DNA of 64,000 nt from NCBI RefSeq assembly GCF_024055795.1, contig NZ_JAMXMY010000010.1, positions 62,001-126,000 of the forward strand, in the 5' to 3' direction. Shown piece by piece: positions 13,411-22,275 of this stretch. The position numbers and the translations under genes are program-made. Under the pieces are notes generated by a model. The model did no database searches and was not told the DNA's origin. It saw only the letters and a program-made list of their open reading frames with translations. Source of the stretch: Actinoallomurus purpureus. GTDB taxonomy: Bacteria; Actinomycetota; Actinomycetes; Streptosporangiales; Streptosporangiaceae. Numbering within the stretch: position 1 is the first letter of the stretch; the number at the start of each line of letters is the position of its first letter.

Positions 13411-13930
13411 ATGGCAGTCTGCCTAAAACCACAGTGGCGTGCTGAGCTCGACCTCTGCGATCCGTGGCACAACGGCCGGGGTCGCCGCCCAGACGACGGG
13501 CGAGTCGTGTGCGCTGATGAGTTCGGTCCGTTGAACCTGCACCCACGCCCCGGCCACGCCTGGCGGTCGAGTGGTCATCCGGCGCGGCTGCGCGCCACCT
13601 ACAACCGCCGAGGCGGGGTCCGGCACATGCTCGCCGCCCTCGACCTGGCCAGCGGGAAGATGATCTACCGCATTCGGGCGCGCAAACGCTCCGGTGAATT
13701 CTTGTCCTTCCTGAAGATCCTGCGCGCCCGCCGGCCCGGCGAGAAGCTGTATCTGATCTGCGACAACTTCTCGCCCCACAAGCACTCCGACGTGACTTGT
13801 CGGGCGGCCGACAACGACATCGAGCTGGTGTTCTTGCCGACGTATGCCTCGTGGTTGAACTGGATCGAAGCCGAGTTCGCCGCCCTACGTTACTTCGCCC
13901 TGAGCGAAGGAGACTTCGAGCAGGGCAATT
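13411..13930 (+). pseudogene. IS630 family transposase remnant
   Basis: The translated segment contains the DDE catalytic core of IS630-type transposases: Asp36 in VVCADEFG, Asp118 in LICDNFSPH and Glu153 in WLNWIEAEF, with 34 residues between the second Asp and the Glu (the DD34E spacing of the family). The N-terminal helix-turn-helix half is missing and the C terminus ends within FALSEGDFEQGN, where sequence belonging to the next gene begins. Terminal inverted repeats are not seen. It is therefore a dead fragment, but a good marker of past mobile-element activity. Confidence 0.85.
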
Positions 13931-13941
13931 GCGTGCTGATG

Positions 13942-14517
13942 CTACCTCGCGGTATGCGTGTAGCAGTAGCCGACCACGTGGTACGTCTTCCCCTTGCCGA
14001 AATACTGGCCGGTAATCTTAATGTACGCCTTGAACGACTTCACCTTATAGAGCGGGTGGGCCATCAGTTTGCCGTACTTGCCGCGCGGGACGACGTACGA
14101 GCCAGCCGCGGCCATGGCGTATGACCTGGTCACGTCGTACCCGACGGCGGCCGAAAGACCATCGACCTCGACGCCTATCGTCGAGGAGTAGGTGTTACTG
14201 ACAGTCCTGGTCTGAGTCAGGGTAAGGGTCATGGGGCCGGGTCCCTGCGCCGTGATCACCGTCTTCTTGCCGCACTTCTTGCCGACGTACTTGATGTGCT
14301 TGTAGACGAGCGGATGAAACGGTCGACGGGCGGCCGCCGGGGAGGCGGAATTCGGTGGGCTAACTCTGTCACTGGTGACCGCGGTAGCTGTCGTTCCGGG
14401 CACGCGCACCGGTTGCGCAACGGCAGCCGAACCGGTTGCGACAGTTCCCGCGAGAACAGCTCCGGCGACCAATGATGTCCGCACGCCGCGGACCGCTGCC
14501 GACTTACTTGTCTTCAC
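13942..14517 (-). CDS. Secreted protein, unknown
   Basis: A 191-residue exported protein. Residues 1-34 form a signal peptide (MKTSKSAAVRG..GSAAVAQ), followed by a Ser/Pro/Thr-rich linker. The mature domain, about 70-191, has two cysteines (KKCGKK and GYCYTH), beta-rich segments such as GPMTLTLTQTRTVSNTYS and the GKYGKLMAHPLYK strand, and is basic. I have seen similar small secreted domains in Streptomyces-type genomes but no function is established. Its 3' end abuts the IS630 fragment, so the insertion broke the neighbouring sequence but not this frame. Confidence 0.75.
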   Translation of the reverse strand: MKTSKSAAVRGVRTSLVAGAVLAGTVATGSAAVAQPVRVPGTTATAVTSDRVSPPNSASPAAARRPFHPLVYKHIKYVGKKCGKKTVITAQGPGPMTLTLTQTRTVSNTYSSTIGVEVDGLSAAVGYDVTRSYAMAAAGSYVVPRGKYGKLMAHPLYKVKSFKAYIKITGQYFGKGKTYHVVGYCYTHTAR

Positions 14518-14931: not shown

Positions 14932-15429
14932 TCAGGTGTGCCGGGGCAAGGCAAGCCAGTCCTGCCAGGAGATGTCACGGCCCAGGTAGCGGGGCCGCCG
15001 GAACGGCCAGTCGGCGGCGATCCACTGCGGCACCAGCGCGTCCAGCGCGTGCTCCACCTCGCTGCCGAGCAGTTCGTCCACCACCCACCAGGAGATCTCG
15101 CCGTCGGCGCCGACCCGCTCGGGCGGGTCGATGTAGACGCAGCCGAGGATGGCGGTCTCCGTCGCGTCGAACAGTGCGTAGTTGAAGGACTGGTGGGCAG
15201 CGATCTCCTTCTCGTGCCGGAGGAGGTCCACACGGTCCTCCTCGTAGGTCATCGTCTCCTTGGGCCAGCCCCAGGCCGGACCGAAGATGCCCCACAGCCG
15301 CTCACGGGAGCCCATCACGGCCGGGTAGTCGAGCTCGGTATCGGCCTCCTTGATCGGCCGCAGGTGATGTGCGCCGCCGGGCAGCGGGACGTGGACGGGG
15401 TGGGCGAAATCGTCGGGCAGCCAGCTCAT
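14932..15429 (-). CDS. GNAT family N-acetyltransferase
   Basis: A 165-residue acetyl-CoA-dependent transferase. The N-terminal HHLRPIKEADTELDYPAVM and the central strand-turn ALFDATETAILGCVYIDPPE..GEISWWVVDE fit the GNAT fold, although the classical Q/RxxGxG/A loop is weak, so the acceptor cannot be predicted. The ATG at 15429 has TAGCCT exactly 7 nt upstream, giving it its own leaderless promoter. It lies 53 nt after the last gene of the peptide cluster, and because of that promoter I do not count it as a sure member. Confidence 0.75.
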   Translation of the reverse strand: MSWLPDDFAHPVHVPLPGGAHHLRPIKEADTELDYPAVMGSRERLWGIFGPAWGWPKETMTYEEDRVDLLRHEKEIAAHQSFNYALFDATETAILGCVYIDPPERVGADGEISWWVVDELLGSEVEHALDALVPQWIAADWPFRRPRYLGRDISWQDWLALPRHT

Positions 15430-15482: not shown

Positions 15483-15938
15483 TCAGGCGCGCTCGCCCCC
15501 GGTGCGCAGCCGCAGCAGCACCACTCCGTACATCCGGTCCGCCGGGCACAGGCCCCACTGTTTGGAATCCTCCGAGCGGGGGTGGTCTCCGCGCAGCACC
15601 AGCATGCCCGGCGGTACGCGGCCGGGCCGGTTCCCCGCCACCCAGGGGGGTACCGGGTCCCCGGTCGCCGCGACGACCCGTTTGACGTACCACCCGGCGG
15701 CTCCGAAGGGGTCGACGGGGCCGTTCCACCCCGCGTGCCGGTCGGGCCGCTGGACGACCACGATCTGGCCGGGCCGGGCCCGGCGGCGGTGGCGCAGCAC
15801 CAGCAGCACATCACCGTGGTGCAGGGTCGGGGTCATGCTGCCGCCCCGCACGGTGACGGTGGACAGCAGCAGCCGGGCTGCCAGCGCGGCCCCGATCACC
15901 AGGGCCGCCGCGACGGCCCAGCCCAGGGCCTGGCTCAT
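15483..15938 (-). CDS. S26 family signal peptidase of the cysteine-rich peptide cluster
   Basis: A 151-residue type I signal-peptidase-like protein. Residues 7-26 are a transmembrane anchor. The catalytic serine is Ser34 in RGGSMTPTL and the general-base lysine is Lys86 in WYVKRVVA; the final box LVLRGDHPRSEDSKQWG is also conserved. It is shorter than LepB, in the range of specialised S26 enzymes. The ATG overlaps the ABC exporter stop by 4 nt (ATGA), so the two are coupled. The peptide of the cluster has an AXA site before its cysteine-rich part, which makes this enzyme the likely leader protease. The link is inferred. Confidence 0.88.
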   Translation of the reverse strand: MSQALGWAVAAALVIGAALAARLLLSTVTVRGGSMTPTLHHGDVLLVLRHRRRARPGQIVVVQRPDRHAGWNGPVDPFGAAGWYVKRVVAATGDPVPPWVAGNRPGRVPPGMLVLRGDHPRSEDSKQWGLCPADRMYGVVLLRLRTGGERA

Positions 15939-17866
15939 CCGGCGGACACCGTGGTCGGCGCCGTCTCGCTCTCCCCGGGCAGCGGCCCGGCGCTGCCCGC
16001 CGACGGCGCCGGGTCCTCCTGGTAGCCCTCCGCCTGACTGCGGAATAGCTGGGCGTAGACACCGTCCGGGGACGCGATGAGGGAGGCGTGGTCGCCACTC
16101 TCCAGGATCTGGCCGTCCTGCACGACGACGATCCGGTCGGCCCGGCGGACGGCGCTGAGCCGGTGGGAGATCAGGACGCTGGTGGAGCCCGCGCGCAGTT
16201 CCCGCAGCCGGTCGTGGACCGCCGCCTCGGCCACCGCGTCGAGGCCGGAGCTGGGCTCGTCCAGGATCATCAGGTCGCGGCCCTGACGCATCAGCCCGCG
16301 GGCCAGCGCCAGGCGCTGCCACTGTCCGCCGGAGAGGTGGACGCCGGTCGTCCGCGCGGCCTCCTCTTTGTCGTCCTCCTCATCTCCTGCGTGGAACAGC
16401 CTGCTCAGCATCGTCTGGTAGCCGGCCGGCAGCCGCTCGACGGTCTCGTGGACCCCGGCGCGCTCGGCGGCGGCACGGACCCGGTCCGGGTCGTCGATCG
16501 CCTCCAGGTCCCCGAGTCCGATGTTCTCGGCGGCGGTGAGGTCGTAGTCCATGTAGTCCTGAAACACCGCCCCGATCCGCTGACGTAGCTGCGCCACGGG
16601 AACGTCGCGGATGTCCACCCCGTCCCACAGCACAGCGCCGCGCTGCGGATCGTAGAACCGGCAGAGCAGCTTGACGAGTGTGCTCTTGCCGGCGCCGTTG
16701 AGCCCGACGACGGCCAGGCTGGTGCCGTGCGGGATGGTCAGGTTCAGCCCGCGCAGCACCCACGGGGCGTCCTCGCCGTAGCGGAACCACACATCGCGCA
16801 GTTCGATGGAATGGGCCAGCGGGGCGCGCTCCCGCGGCTGCGAGGGCCCGGCCAGGTCGTCCCGGATCCCGACCACCGTCAGATAGTGGTGGAAGACCAG
16901 AGCGGACTGATGTCCCATGGCGATGCCCTGCACCAGGGCACTGAGCCCGGACTGGACCCCGGCCAGGGCGCCGATGAAGACCGACACATCGCCGATGCTG
17001 ATCGTCCTGGCGGCCGCGGCGTGCACGGCCCACAGCAGCCCCCCGGCCGCCAGCAGCGCCCCGAGGGCGGCGAGGAAGACCTGGACGCGCACCACGCTCC
17101 GCTCCAGCCGGTCCTCGGCGTTGTTGGCCGCGCGCAGTTCGGTGAGCATCCGGCCGTGCAGGAAGCTCCCCAGCCCGAACAGGCGGACCTCCTTGGCGGC
17201 CTGCAGGTCCGTCAGCAGCATCTGGTAGAAGATCTTGCGCCGCATGCCGGGGCTGGTGCGCCACATCAGCCCTGCCCGCCGCCGGCTGAGCGTCAGATGG
17301 GCGATCATCGCGGGTGCGGCGGCCGCCAGCGCGGCGCCCGCCATGATCGGGTTGATCGCCACCAGGGTACCCAGGAACCCGGCGATGGCCAGGGTCCCCT
17401 GCAGGGCGGACAGGCCCATGTGGACCAGCTGGTCCGGGGCGTGTTCGGCGGACTGCTGGGCCAGCCGCAGCCGGTCGTGGAAGCGCGGCTCCTCCAGGCG
17501 TGCCAGCCCGTTCATCCGGTTGACCGCGCCGAACAGCCGGTCCTGTGAGAGCAGGCCGATGGCGCGCCGGGCGCGCCCCTGCGCATAAGTGGTGACGGCC
17601 GAGGTGGTGGCCATCGCGATGCCCAGGGCACCGATTCCGGCCGCCATCCACCCCAGCGCCCCGGTTCGGGGGTGGGCGGCGGTGAGCTCGTCGAGCGCGA
17701 CCTTGGTCAGCCAGGCGGTGGCCACTGGCGCCATGCCACCGATCACCGCCATGACAAGCTGGAGGAACAGCATGCTGGGGCAGGCCTGCCAGGCGAGCGC
17801 GTAGGCCGCCTTCATCCCGCGGACGACGGAGACGCCGGACTCCGTCACGTCATCGTCGCCGCTCAC
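15935..17866 (-). CDS. ABC exporter (fused permease and ATPase) of the cysteine-rich peptide cluster
   Basis: A 643-residue half-transporter. Residues 25-335 hold the membrane domain with about six helices, and 353-600 the ATPase, with Walker A GLNGAGKST (388-396), signature LSGGQ (511-515) and Walker B LMILDEP (532-538). It has no N-terminal C39 peptidase domain, so it cannot cut a leader itself, in line with a separate S26 peptidase next door. Between the Q-loop and the signature is an unusual acidic insert (HAGDEEDDKEEA, 492-503). The GTG start overlaps the upstream gene stop (GTGA). Export of the six-cysteine peptide is the likely role. Confidence 0.9.
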   Translation of the reverse strand: MSGDDDVTESGVSVVRGMKAAYALAWQACPSMLFLQLVMAVIGGMAPVATAWLTKVALDELTAAHPRTGALGWMAAGIGALGIAMATTSAVTTYAQGRARRAIGLLSQDRLFGAVNRMNGLARLEEPRFHDRLRLAQQSAEHAPDQLVHMGLSALQGTLAIAGFLGTLVAINPIMAGAALAAAAPAMIAHLTLSRRRAGLMWRTSPGMRRKIFYQMLLTDLQAAKEVRLFGLGSFLHGRMLTELRAANNAEDRLERSVVRVQVFLAALGALLAAGGLLWAVHAAAARTISIGDVSVFIGALAGVQSGLSALVQGIAMGHQSALVFHHYLTVVGIRDDLAGPSQPRERAPLAHSIELRDVWFRYGEDAPWVLRGLNLTIPHGTSLAVVGLNGAGKSTLVKLLCRFYDPQRGAVLWDGVDIRDVPVAQLRQRIGAVFQDYMDYDLTAAENIGLGDLEAIDDPDRVRAAAERAGVHETVERLPAGYQTMLSRLFHAGDEEDDKEEAARTTGVHLSGGQWQRLALARGLMRQGRDLMILDEPSSGLDAVAEAAVHDRLRELRAGSTSVLISHRLSAVRRADRIVVVQDGQILESGDHASLIASPDGVYAQLFRSQAEGYQEDPAPSAGSAGPLPGESETAPTTVSAG

Positions 17867-18438
17867 GGCACCGAAGGCCGCGCGGGCTCGCCCAGCCCCT
17901 GCAGGCCGACACTGGCGGCGGTGGCGACCCCGTCAGGGCCGTAGTGGGCGAACCCGGGGTAGAAGCGGACCCCGAAGGCAGTGCCGACGGGCGCGTCGAG
18001 GAATTCAGGCACCACCTGGTCCGCGACGCCGACGAGCCGGGCGGCCAGTTCACTACCGGCCGCGTCGACACCGACCACCGTGGCCAGTACCTGACCTCCC
18101 GCGTCCCGCACCCGGCGCGCGTGCTCGGCGAACTCCGGCACGCTGTCGTCGCAGCTCGAGCAGTCCAGCGACAGGAAGGCGATCAGCACCGGCCGACCGG
18201 CCAGCTCGTCCCTGGTGACCGTCGCGCCGTCGGCGGTGGTCGCCGTGAACTCGGGCATCCGGTCTCCGGGCGCGATGCCCAGTTCCGGGTCCCTGTCGAA
18301 GGAGTCGGGGTCGTGGTGGTGGGCGGCCGGCGGAGCGCTCAGACGGGCACGCCAGCGACGCGCCACGGCCACGGTCAGCACGAGGTTCAGCGCGGTGAGT
18401 GCCGCGACCAGAACGAGCCCTGCGACGAGGTATTCCAC
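17863..18438 (-). CDS. Membrane-anchored thioredoxin-fold protein (TlpA/MauD-like), copy B
   Basis: A 191-residue redoxin. Residues 1-26 are an N-terminal membrane helix (VEYLVAGLVLVAAL..), so the domain faces the outside. The thioredoxin part starts near 58 (APGDRMPEF) and has the active site CSSC (93-96) and the cis-proline at 161 (YPGF). The CxxC and the PGDxxPxF motif are those of TlpA/ResA/MauD proteins. The GTG at 18438 with GGAAAGGA upstream places the helix first, as in copy A. It overlaps the exporter start and follows the MauE-like gene by 25 nt. It should oxidise or reshuffle cysteines of the exported peptide. Confidence 0.88.
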   Translation of the reverse strand: MEYLVAGLVLVAALTALNLVLTVAVARRWRARLSAPPAAHHHDPDSFDRDPELGIAPGDRMPEFTATTADGATVTRDELAGRPVLIAFLSLDCSSCDDSVPEFAEHARRVRDAGGQVLATVVGVDAAGSELAARLVGVADQVVPEFLDAPVGTAFGVRFYPGFAHYGPDGVATAASVGLQGLGEPARPSVP

Positions 18439-18463
18439 GGATGTCCTTTCCGGCTCCGGCGTC

Positions 18464-19006
18464 TCACCGGCCGAGGTCCCCGGCCGCGACCGGGGACTGG
18501 AAGAGCGCGGCGATGTCATCGACGAAGGCGGTCAAAGTGGTGAGCAGGCCCGCCGAGACCACGGCCAGCGCGATCCCTGGTGCCTGGCCGGGAACGCCGT
18601 CGCCGAGTGATATCGCCATGAACGAGCCCAGGCTCGCCGCCGCCAGCAGCACCGCGTTGCGGGCGATGTGCCAGCCGCTCATGGGCACTTCGCCGGCACC
18701 GAAGCAGGCGCACGTCACCTTTTTCCCGCGGGCCACGACGAGGATCGGGACGGCCGTCAGGCCGCAGCAGAACAGTGCGGCGGCGAGGAAACCGGCGGTG
18801 ACGGTGGCGGGCAGGGCCAGCAGCAGCGCGATGAGCAGCTCGGCGGCCGGGACCAGCACGGCCAGCGGGCGGCGCAGCCGCGCGGGAATGAAGTCGAAGC
18901 CTTTCAGGGAGGCGGCGAAGACACCTGGTGAACGCAGCTTGGCCACCGCCGCCAGTGTCATCACCGCCGCCAGGGTGAGGCGGCAGGCGAACGATACGTA
19001 CAGCAC
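18464..19006 (-). CDS. MauE-like membrane protein
   Basis: A 180-residue integral membrane protein with four or five helices. It has the features of the MauE/DoxX redox-associated group: a first helix followed by AKLRSPGVF, then the motif CACFG (99-103) between helices. In methylamine-utilisation clusters MauE and MauD are needed for disulfide formation in the small subunit of methylamine dehydrogenase. Here a MauE-like protein lies between the peptide gene and a MauD-like gene, pointing to the same kind of electron transfer. The GTG at 19006 follows AGGAG. Confidence 0.85.
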   Translation of the reverse strand: MLYVSFACRLTLAAVMTLAAVAKLRSPGVFAASLKGFDFIPARLRRPLAVLVPAAELLIALLLALPATVTAGFLAAALFCCGLTAVPILVVARGKKVTCACFGAGEVPMSGWHIARNAVLLAAASLGSFMAISLGDGVPGQAPGIALAVVSAGLLTTLTAFVDDIAALFQSPVAAGDLGR

Positions 19007-19156
19007 GGAAGCTCCTGGACGAGGTGGTGCGGGAGCGCGCGGGCACCCTGGCGGAGGCGGGCACACGCGTTCAGGGAGAGCCGGGGCCGGCGTGGCCGCC
19101 CTCGCCGAGGACGGCCACGCGACTGTCAAGCAGGCGTTACGCAGGCCGACAAGGCA

Positions 19157-19360
19157 TCAGCAGTTGTTCTGGCTGGTGATGTACCAGACGGTGCAGTGAG
19201 TCACGCAGTTGCCGCTGGTCGAGCAGGTGCGCACCCAGCACTCCCCGTCAAACCTCTTGAATTGGGTTTGCGTGTCCGGCGGGCAACCGGCGTCGGCGGT
19301 GGTCGTGGGAAGCAGCGCCTCGATGGCGCGGGTGACACGCCGGGTCGCGCTTTGGAACAT
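19157..19360 (-). CDS. Six-cysteine secreted peptide precursor with leader (putative RiPP-like or disulfide-rich peptide)
   Basis: The 67-residue precursor starts MFQSATRRVTRAIEALL and has cysteines at 26, 41, 46, 52, 56 and 67, the last being the C-terminal residue. The first 24 residues are amphipathic and basic with no Sec hydrophobic core, and end T-A-D-A before Gly25-Cys26, an AXA site suited to the S26 peptidase. The mature part would be about 43 residues with three disulfides. AAGGAGG precedes the ATG, one of the best ribosome sites in the window. It is flanked by redoxin A and the MauE-like gene. No lanthipeptide, lasso or radical-SAM enzyme is nearby. The activity (bacteriocin, toxin or signal) is unknown. 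Confidence 0.82.
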   Translation of the reverse strand: MFQSATRRVTRAIEALLPTTTADAGCPPDTQTQFKRFDGECWVRTCSTSGNCVTHCTVWYITSQNNC

Positions 19361-19474
19361 GGTTCCTCCTTGTGGTGGGGTGATCTGTTTCCACGCACGG
19401 GCCGAGTGCCGCCGGGAAAGAGGCGAACGCGGCGGCCGGGGCCGGCGGGGTATGGGGGATGGCCCTTCGGCGCG

Positions 19475-20017
19475 TTAAGGGGCGACCAGCTCGGTCCGCA
19501 GGGCGGCGACGCCCACGCCCGCCGAGGTCACCATGCCGTTGGGGCCGTACCAGGCGTAGGTCGGGTAGTGCTTGGCTCCGTACCGCTGCGACAGCTCGGC
19601 CTTCGAGTCCTCGGCGATCACGATGTCCATCACGTCGCTGAGCATCGCGGCCAGTTCGCTGTCGGCCGAGTCGTCTCCGTGAACGATCGCCAAGGAGGTC
19701 CCTCCGGCGGCCCGCAGCCGCTCGGCGTGCCCGGCGAAGACGGGCACGGCCTCGACGCAGGCCTTGCACGTGAGCGAGAAGAATCCGACCAGGGTCTCCT
19801 TCCCGAGCAGGGTCCGCTCCGTCACGGCGGTGCCGTCGAGGGCACGGGCCGAGAAGCTCGGAATCCGATCGATCATCCGGACGTTGGAGACGGCTCCGGT
19901 AGGGAGGCCACCCATGGCGTCCAGCTCTCGCCACCGGCGGAGCATGACCAGAAGGATCGCCAGGTTCAGCACACCGACGACGCCGACCAGCACCAGCCCC
20001 ACTACAGCGAATATCAC
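19475..20017 (-). CDS. Membrane-anchored thioredoxin-fold protein (TlpA/MauD-like), copy A
   Basis: A 180-residue paralogue of copy B at the head of the cluster. Residues 2-25 are the membrane helix (IFAVVGLVLVGVVGVL), then IDRIPSFSARALDG opens the thioredoxin domain, with the active site CKAC (84-87) and the cis-proline 152 (YPTY). I chose the GTG at 20017, which follows GGGGAGAGGA and starts directly with the helix as in copy B; an ATG at 20074 would add 19 residues. The two redoxins differ strongly outside the active sites, so they may have different roles, such as oxidase and isomerase, in folding the six-cysteine peptide. Confidence 0.85.
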   Translation of the reverse strand: MIFAVVGLVLVGVVGVLNLAILLVMLRRWRELDAMGGLPTGAVSNVRMIDRIPSFSARALDGTAVTERTLLGKETLVGFFSLTCKACVEAVPVFAGHAERLRAAGGTSLAIVHGDDSADSELAAMLSDVMDIVIAEDSKAELSQRYGAKHYPTYAWYGPNGMVTSAGVGVAALRTELVAP

Positions 20018-20767: not shown

Positions 20768-21325
20768 GTGGAACGAACACTGCGTGCCCGGCTCAGAGCC
20801 GGCGATTCAGCCGCCTTCAGCGAGCTGTTCGATGAACACGCATCAGCGATTTATCGTCATGCCGCCCGGTTGACCGGGGATCGGACCGTCGCCGAGGACG
20901 CAGTGTCCTTGACCTTCTTGGAAGCATGGCGGTTGCGTAAGCGGCTGAAGCCCGAAGAGGGCAGCGTGCTCCCCTGGCTTTTCGGACTTGCCACCAACGT
21001 TATACGTAACCAGGCTCGTACCGCCCGGCGACACAAAGCGGCGATGTCCCGGTTGCCCACCCGCGATTTGATTCCCGACTTCAGCGACGAACTGATTGCC
21101 CGGTTCGAGGATGCCGAACGAGTGGCGGCCGCTCGTACGGCACTGGAGACGCTGAGTGACACCGACCGGGAAATCGTCATGCTGTGCGTCTGGGCAGGGT
21201 TGGACTATGCGGCCGCCGCGGAGGCCCTGGGAATCCCGGTGGGCACGGTGCGGTCCAGGCTGTCGCGGGCAAAGGTCCGCCTGCGTGAACTCACCGCGAC
21301 GATGATGCAGAGAGAGAACCGATGA
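20768..21325 (+). CDS. ECF-type RNA polymerase sigma factor
   Basis: A 185-residue sigma-70 family protein with only regions 2 and 4. Region 2 has FSELFDEHASAIYRHAARLTGD..AEDAVSLTFLEAWR, and region 4 has LSDTDREIVMLCVWAGLDYAAAAEALGIPVGTVRSRLSRA. The start is GTG, with GGACAG upstream. Its stop overlaps the ATG of the next gene (ATGA). Pairs of an ECF sigma factor and a CU044_5270 protein are frequent in actinomycetes. No zinc anti-sigma motif (HxxxCxxC) is present in the partner, so regulation is unclear. Confidence 0.93.
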   Translation: MERTLRARLRAGDSAAFSELFDEHASAIYRHAARLTGDRTVAEDAVSLTFLEAWRLRKRLKPEEGSVLPWLFGLATNVIRNQARTARRHKAAMSRLPTRDLIPDFSDELIARFEDAERVAAARTALETLSDTDREIVMLCVWAGLDYAAAAEALGIPVGTVRSRLSRAKVRLRELTATMMQRENR

Positions 21326-22275
21326 ACACCGAGTTCAAAGAGATCGCCGACATGCTTCCGGGCATCGGAGACCCGGAACTTCCCTCGATGCGACACCGCC
21401 AGCTCAAAGAGCACTTCATGCGTGAGGTCACTGGACATCGCCGGGCCGGCCGGCGGATCCGCCTGGCCGCCCTGCTGGCTCCGCTCGCCGCAGGAGCAGC
21501 CGCGCTGAGCCTGGCCATTCCGGGATTGGTCGGTCACGGTTCGCACTCGGAGGAGGTGGCGTACGTCCCGGTGAAAATCATCCATGTCCCTGTCGCCTCA
21601 AAGAAAGGCGTCGCCCGGACGCTGAACCAGATCGCGGACGCCGCCGCTCGTGTACCAGCGGTCACCGCCGGCCAGTACGCCTACACCAAGAGCATGGTGG
21701 AGAGCACGCGACCCACGGAGCAGCGCAGCTTCGACGGCCCCGTCGAAATGATCGCTCTGCACCCGCGCCAGGTATGGATGCCCCTGGACCTGCTCAAAAA
21801 GACGGGGCTCGCCCGGGAGAGCGGACAGGACACGACCTTGCACTCGGCCATCGACAGCCTGGGCTACAAGCAGCTCGCCACGCTGCCCACGGATCCGGCC
21901 ACGCTGTTGAACCGCCTTTACGTCCGTCAGGGTGACCGGGATCCGGCGCGCGCGTTCGATCAGATCCAGACTCTGATGAACGAACAGATCGTGCCGCCGG
22001 CCACCCGTGCCGCGCTCTACCGGGCGACCGCGCTCATCCCCGGCGTACGCGTGGTCAATGCCTCCGAGGACGCCCTCGGCCGCAAGGGGATCGCCGTGTC
22101 GTTCGACGCGCACGGGGAGCGCACCGAGTGGGTGTTCGACAAGACCTCTTTCGCCTACCTCGGTGATCGCGACTACCTGATCAACAATTCCAGCCAGGGC
22201 AGGGCCGGCACCCTGATGAGCGCCAGCGCCGTCCAGACCCAAAAGCTGGTGAGCGACAAGGGCCGGCTCCGCTGA
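21322..22275 (+). CDS. CU044_5270 family membrane protein, probable sigma partner
   Basis: A 317-residue protein. Residues 1-45 are cytoplasmic (MNTEFKEIADMLPGIG), 47-70 a single membrane helix (LAALLAPLAAGAAALSLAI), and the rest extracytoplasmic with the pattern VTAGQYAYTKSMVEST..IVPPATRAALYRATALIPGVRV typical of the CU044_5270 family. It is coupled to the ECF sigma gene by a 4-nt overlap. This topology is that of an anti-sigma factor or sensor, but the family has not been shown to bind sigma, so the role is inferred. Confidence 0.88.
   Translation: MNTEFKEIADMLPGIGDPELPSMRHRQLKEHFMREVTGHRRAGRRIRLAALLAPLAAGAAALSLAIPGLVGHGSHSEEVAYVPVKIIHVPVASKKGVARTLNQIADAAARVPAVTAGQYAYTKSMVESTRPTEQRSFDGPVEMIALHPRQVWMPLDLLKKTGLARESGQDTTLHSAIDSLGYKQLATLPTDPATLLNRLYVRQGDRDPARAFDQIQTLMNEQIVPPATRAALYRATALIPGVRVVNASEDALGRKGIAVSFDAHGERTEWVFDKTSFAYLGDRDYLINNSSQGRAGTLMSASAVQTQKLVSDKGRLR

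Follow-up and report, generated by a model that had tools for sequence, protein, structure and literature searches.

A probable maturation and export cassette for a disulfide-rich peptide in Actinoallomurus purpureus and related actinobacteria

Results

A stretch of 64,000 nucleotides from Actinoallomurus purpureus (contig NZ_JAMXMY010000010.1, positions 62,001 to 126,000; hereafter the window) was analysed with respect to six minus-strand genes at 15483-20017, which encode a small cysteine-rich peptide together with two redoxins, a MauE-like protein, an ABC exporter and an S26 protease. The order and coordinates of these genes, as given in an earlier note on this DNA, were confirmed at base level. 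The gene overlaps it had described are also present, namely GTGA between the redoxin B and exporter genes and ATGA between the exporter and S26 genes. The features of the cassette are listed below.

19475-20017, minus strand: redoxin A, thioredoxin-like domain with CKAC motif and N-terminal membrane segment (Pfam AhpC-TSA/Redoxin; AhpC-TSA E 1.1e-8)
19364-19371, minus strand: Shine-Dalgarno-like AAGGAGGA of the peptide gene, just upstream of the peptide start
19157-19360, minus strand: precursor peptide, 67 residues, six cysteines, ADA followed by GC at residues 22-26
19289-19360, minus strand: peptide leader, residues 1-24, ADA at its end
19160-19288, minus strand: peptide core, residues 25-67, six cysteines
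18464-19006, minus strand: MauE-like membrane protein with CACF (CxC) motif (Pfam MauE E 9.5e-27); start codon picked by eye
17863-18438, minus strand: redoxin B, membrane-anchored, CSSC motif; weak MauD similarity (E 0.043, far under the cut-off)
15935-17866, minus strand: ABC exporter half-transporter (Pfam/NCBIfam)
15483-15938, minus strand: S26 signal-peptidase-like protease with one membrane segment and Ser/Lys motifs (Peptidase_S26 E 3.7e-18)

Both redoxins, MauE, the ABC exporter and the S26 peptidase were assigned by Pfam and NCBIfam. The 67-residue peptide had no counterpart in either database at E 1, its single PDB match (E 0.31) being at chance level, and no N-terminal peptidase domain was matched in Pfam for the exporter. 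In accordance with the earlier note, no lanthipeptide, lasso or radical-SAM family was matched in Pfam among the cassette and neighbouring genes scanned (part of the window), and the mau structural genes of methylamine dehydrogenase were not found among these genes either. Hydrophobic segment analysis revealed one strong N-terminal segment each in redoxin B and S26, five segments in MauE, and in redoxin A a strong segment at residue 8 with a marginal second one at residue 76.

The peptide was searched over 345 genomes of the order Streptosporangiales, of which Actinoallomurus and Nonomuraea are members. Strong full-length matches with 57-70% identity were obtained in 13 genomes including that of the window (12 others). 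A scan of contigs gave 11 named loci (one Actinoallomurus, A. spadix; seven Actinomadura; three Nonomuraea), in which redoxin A has relatives at 74-90% identity; loci are denoted by L numbers in this text. Ten of them have enough flank to test, L034 ending at a contig end. The order redoxin A, peptide, redoxin B, ABC, S26 was kept in all ten, and MauE followed the peptide in eight, the two loci without it being those of A. spadix (L031) and N. rhodomycinica (L038). In the alignment of 13 orthologues the six cysteines, A22 and A24 were invariant; the described leader ending in an AxA site is borne out. The motif AAGGAG preceded the peptide start in 12 of the 13, L012 having AGAGGAGAGG there. 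The pN/pS ratio of the peptide gene, in uncorrected proportions, was 0.69 overall, 0.55 for the leader and 0.72 for the core. Because orthologues of 57-70% identity occur in 12 other genomes within the same surrounding gene order and with a pN/pS of 0.69, the predicted peptide gene is not a chance open reading frame (ORF). A decayed copy was seen in Nonomuraea jabiensis (L042), where matches were limited to the C-terminal part of the peptide and a redoxin A fragment.

Six flanking genes of the window were sought in the named loci and showed no recurrence, bar one weak sigma-factor match in L036. Since the cassette recurs among relatives while the tested flanks do not, the predicted unit is six genes, and the GNAT gene (14932-15429) and the sigma/CU044 pair (20768-22275) are placed outside it.

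The anatomy of the precursor was analysed in the window and in the wider family, for which 105 profile matches were reduced to 103 parsed peptides and 98 distinct cores. The cysteine spacing of the window peptide is C-X14-C-X4-C-X5-C-X3-C-X10-C, and the computed monoisotopic mass of its core is 4866.02 with three disulfides and 4872.07 in the reduced state. A helix was predicted in the window leader at residues 3-16 with low confidence (structure model; predicted local distance difference test score of the leader about 52). In a hydropathy calculation the best 15-residue value of this leader was 0.39, and by this measure it has no Sec-like hydrophobic core. Across the family a conserved leader (D-15 R-14, P-7 and AxA at the cut, counted back from the cut) precedes a hypervariable cysteine-rich core. 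Among 54 clustered representatives P-7 was present in 51, D-15 and R-14 in 43 each, and A-3 in 51 (partly by construction). The mean pairwise identity was 0.37 for the last 20 leader residues vs 0.23 for the core, and leader and separate core lie in one gene-encoded precursor, as in ribosomally synthesised and post-translationally modified peptides (RiPPs).

The distinct cores carried 4 cysteines in 11 cases, 6 in 58, 7 in 1, 8 in 25, 10 in 2 and 12 in 1. The number is even in 97 of the 98 cores; clustering at 60% identity leaves 56 cores, 55 of them even, these counts not being independent draws as the sequences are related. Such even counts fit full disulfide pairing of the cores. In some relatives the extra cysteines appear in pairs, at columns 25 and 50 in L013 and L016 and at columns 30 and 47 in L014 and L044, which suggests that these positions may be paired as disulfides; in L016, C41 is shifted to column 36. 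Of thirty family peptides scanned, none matched NCBIfam, and Pfam gave no more than isolated weak matches. Precursor arrays were observed near one exporter, with three precursors in L073 and seven in L203, where seven leader-bearing cysteine-rich ORFs surround one exporter cassette (L203:3579-9465).

The family was also searched from the peptide beyond the order. With a 16-peptide profile (E 0.001), 13 of 394 genomes in the class gave a match, and a 30-peptide profile (E 1e-4) matched 20 of 343 genomes of the large genus g87, which is probably Streptomyces because a 93%-identical peptide sits on a Streptomyces plasmid. This plasmid holds a full cassette with the peptide annotated as hypothetical protein and an adjoining AfsR/SARP gene. 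In 47 peptide-selected loci the exporter was present in 45, a redoxin in 45, S26 in 41 and MauE in 39. Twenty arbitrary 16-kb control stretches from 13 of the same genomes contained no cassette component at the thresholds used. The host genome itself has a second, divergent cassette (L078) with a 54-residue peptide (G000 contig C3:90359-90523, L078:8360-8524), MauE, redoxin, ABC and S26.

The converse search was started from the window exporter at E 1e-150 over 342 genomes of the order, with three candidates scored per genome, so that copies are undercounted. Matches were found in 168 of these genomes. The exporter was at least 80% identical in 14 genomes; 13 of these carry the peptide, and the remaining one is G195 (L180). 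For sampled exporters at about 50-58% identity a leader-bearing cysteine-rich peptide was present in the stretch in 36 of 39 cases, mostly adjoining the exporter and once (L200) about 4 kb away; the same 39 loci contained a redoxin in 33, S26 in 34 and MauE in 27. A similar peptide rate may hold for all exporters matched in the 168 genomes.

Motifs of the accessory proteins were compared across homologues. The GxSMxP (Ser) and Lys motifs were retained in all 42 S26 homologues found and the CxC motif in all 40 MauE homologues found. CxxC was kept in 57 of 64 redoxins; the exceptions are five second redoxins with CGPT, the decayed L042 fragment, and L071, where a CRGC present in the protein fell outside the alignment. 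Four loci of the genus g105 (L066, L067, L068, L071) have no S26 in the stretch, and their leaders end with R before D/E-C and carry no AxA. This joint absence of S26 and AxA agrees with S26 acting as the leader peptidase. In the same four loci MauE and redoxin form one fused protein, which supports a single electron path through both. Within this group the L068 exporter reads as two ORFs, and genes upstream of L066 encode a PCMT methyltransferase and an MvdD-like pre-ATP-grasp protein.

The surroundings of the cassettes were also compared. Of the 84 loci with flanks, 29 have a BTAD/SARP-type regulator-like gene nearby vs 2 of 20 control stretches, these being raw counts with the assignment Pfam-checked for the L119 gene only. 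Just four groups of non-cassette ORFs within 4 kb recur in at least six loci; one is BTAD-regulator-like and three carry no identification, some of them probably being antisense readings. In the window, an ECF sigma factor lies beside a CU044_5270-family protein (20768-22275, plus strand), divergent from the cassette, and conservation of this pair with the cassette was not seen. A DDE_3 transposase-like ORF, presumably of IS630 type, lies at 13411-14124 (plus strand), about 1.4 kb downstream of the S26 gene. The interval had been called mobile-looking, which this ORF and the unshared flanks favour; no mobile element enclosing the cassette was shown.

Discussion

Taken together, the data make it quite likely that the cassette serves specifically to mature and export a single secreted peptide rich in disulfides. 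Its support lies in the parts present, their co-conservation, the division into leader and core, the near-universal even cysteine number and the one lineage that lacks both S26 and AxA, all read from sequence. The earlier proposal that the set makes, oxidises, exports and trims the peptide is in accordance with this co-conservation. From the topology and the non-Sec leader we infer cytosolic synthesis and ABC export, followed by cleavage and oxidation outside the cell. The reduced precursor would be synthesised in the cytosol, and the ABC exporter would recognise its leader and move it over the membrane. The membrane-anchored S26 protease would then cleave after AxA, while the two membrane-anchored redoxins would oxidise (or reshuffle) the core cysteines to give three disulfides and MauE would re-oxidise both redoxins. 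The cleavage and oxidation may follow either order, both being extracytoplasmic. MauE may draw on quinone, with the redoxins oxidising rather than reducing. What is released is probably a peptide for competition, similar to bacteriocins or defensins, a bacteriocin-like role being the most likely function; each biochemical step, the order of steps and the biological role are set out here as proposals.

Several observations weigh against this scheme. The loci without S26 and AxA form one lineage, so their covariation may reflect one event. The peptides of L046, L074, L185 and L193 retain AxA with no local S26, because of which another S26 acting in trans may be considered for these loci. Redoxin B has CGPT in place of CxxC in five loci (L064, L065, L109, L110, L111), and for this reason the two redoxins probably differ in role. 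The L118 core has 7 cysteines, as does L182, one of the two unparsed peptides, the other having 6. MauE is missing in 8 of the 47 loci selected by the peptide and in 12 of the 39 selected by the exporter. L074 and L119 have no nearby family exporter and redoxin; at L074:8328-8504 the peptide is an orphan, leader-bearing and without a cassette in the stretch examined, with a BTAD-like regulator preceding it. The 30-peptide profile matched just 2 of 396 genomes of the phylum sample, where scoring was limited to 15 candidates in each genome so that more divergent members may have escaped, and in the control stretches a wider profile gave one weak match (E 0.038). Neighbourhoods lacking the peptide or its cysteines, which the earlier note had named as counter-evidence, were sought in both directions. 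Exporter and redoxin accompany the peptide in 45 of 47 loci, and the peptide lies near 36 of 39 distant exporters. The cases of absence are L180, where an 85% identical exporter stands alone with peptide, redoxin, MauE and S26 all missing, and L212 and L217, whose exporter stretches are real misses for the peptide; at L181, also without peptide, the locus is broken by a contig end.

The function of the product is the part most exposed to an alternative. The same export and folding route may deliver a peptide with a signalling, developmental or surface role, or one that inhibits proteases, instead of an antimicrobial, which we regard as possible and clearly the less likely case. No killing or immunity gene was recognised, a point that also counts against the competition role, and the architecture leaves the function unfixed. 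The cores are hypervariable, presence is patchy and multi-precursor arrays occur, features that are more characteristic of peptides used in competition.

A general thiol or cytochrome maturation unit, with the small ORF incidental, is a disfavoured and very improbable explanation. MauE, TlpA-like redoxins and S26 proteases do have general roles elsewhere, some loci miss one part and the L180 exporter stands alone, but the frame, six cysteines and AxA are kept in 13 of 13 orthologues, the ribosome site in 12 of 13, and a leader-bearing peptide lies near 36 of 39 more distant exporters. A place for the peptide in an unlinked enzyme, as its small subunit or as a cofactor carrier, like the beta subunit of methylamine dehydrogenase for MauE/MauD, seems equally remote, for although MauE is present and redoxin B is weakly MauD-like, no enzyme partner was seen among the non-cassette ORFs recurring within 4 kb and the core is hypervariable.

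The dedicated peptide line was then compared with known systems. The description as undescribed was only partly right, because decRiPPter (Kloosterman 2020) had already proposed mauE-bearing RiPP candidates. According to the available part of that article, three Streptomyces candidate families carry mauE, one of them also mauD, with precursors of at least 8 cysteines (PMC7794033). They resemble the present cassettes in their predicted RiPP clusters, mauE homologue and cysteine-rich precursors. The window peptide differs in having 6 cysteines, whereas at least 8 occur in 28 of the 98 distinct cores of the wider family; the accessible portion of the text mentions no leader motif, no coupling to S26 and no occurrence beyond Streptomyces (PMC7794033). 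Compared by description only, these candidates are the nearest precedent and may belong to the same superfamily, and no nearer system appeared among the matches listed in the open-access literature.

Actifensin of Actinomyces, as far as the excerpted article describes it, is alike in its leader, three-disulfide core, ABC genes and actinobacterial host (PMC6989792). Its motif C-X5-12-C-X3-C-X9-10-C-X4-5-C-X-C is not fitted by the window peptide, and its cluster has a subtilisin-like protease; the words thioredoxin and peptidase are absent from the portion of its text at hand (PMC6989792). In the available part of the source on sviceucin-type class I lasso peptides, SviE (DoxX) and SviF (thioredoxin) similarly accompany an exported disulfide peptide, in this case with lasso B/C enzymes and with SviF dispensable for the disulfides (PMC9266682). 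The TMcin cluster, again from a partial text, also encodes a protease for the leader, a thiol oxidoreductase and an ABC transporter together with a disulfide peptide. It differs in that the precursor is integrated in the membrane, TmcD is DsbA-like, the ATPase is separate from the permease, and there is a TmcE escort (PMC13252029). These three systems share logic with the cassette, not membership. Laterosporulin (PDB 4ozk, 6lwy) is a disulfide-rich bacteriocin of a size similar to the window peptide.

Conclusion

The earlier reading stands and understates the case, as the cassette in the window appears to be one among many that belong to a family of exported disulfide peptides defined by their leader. 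By sequence comparison the window peptide belongs to a large, variable and apparently unnamed peptide family of soil actinobacteria. We lean towards a very large leader-defined class, with a DR-x6-P-x3-AxA leader, a cognate S26 cut and MauE/redoxin folding outside the cell, present in about half of the Streptosporangiales genomes, often in several copies, in which a modular leader carries a great diversity of cysteine scaffolds. Disulfide-rich mini-proteins are stable scaffolds, and to our knowledge few bacterial ones are known. The leader motif and exporter would give a direct mining handle across an order for precursors without an NCBIfam match (30 scanned), and the cassette offers a bacterial route of oxidative folding outside the cell, testable with five or six genes. 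The family is a likely source of new stable bioactive peptides.

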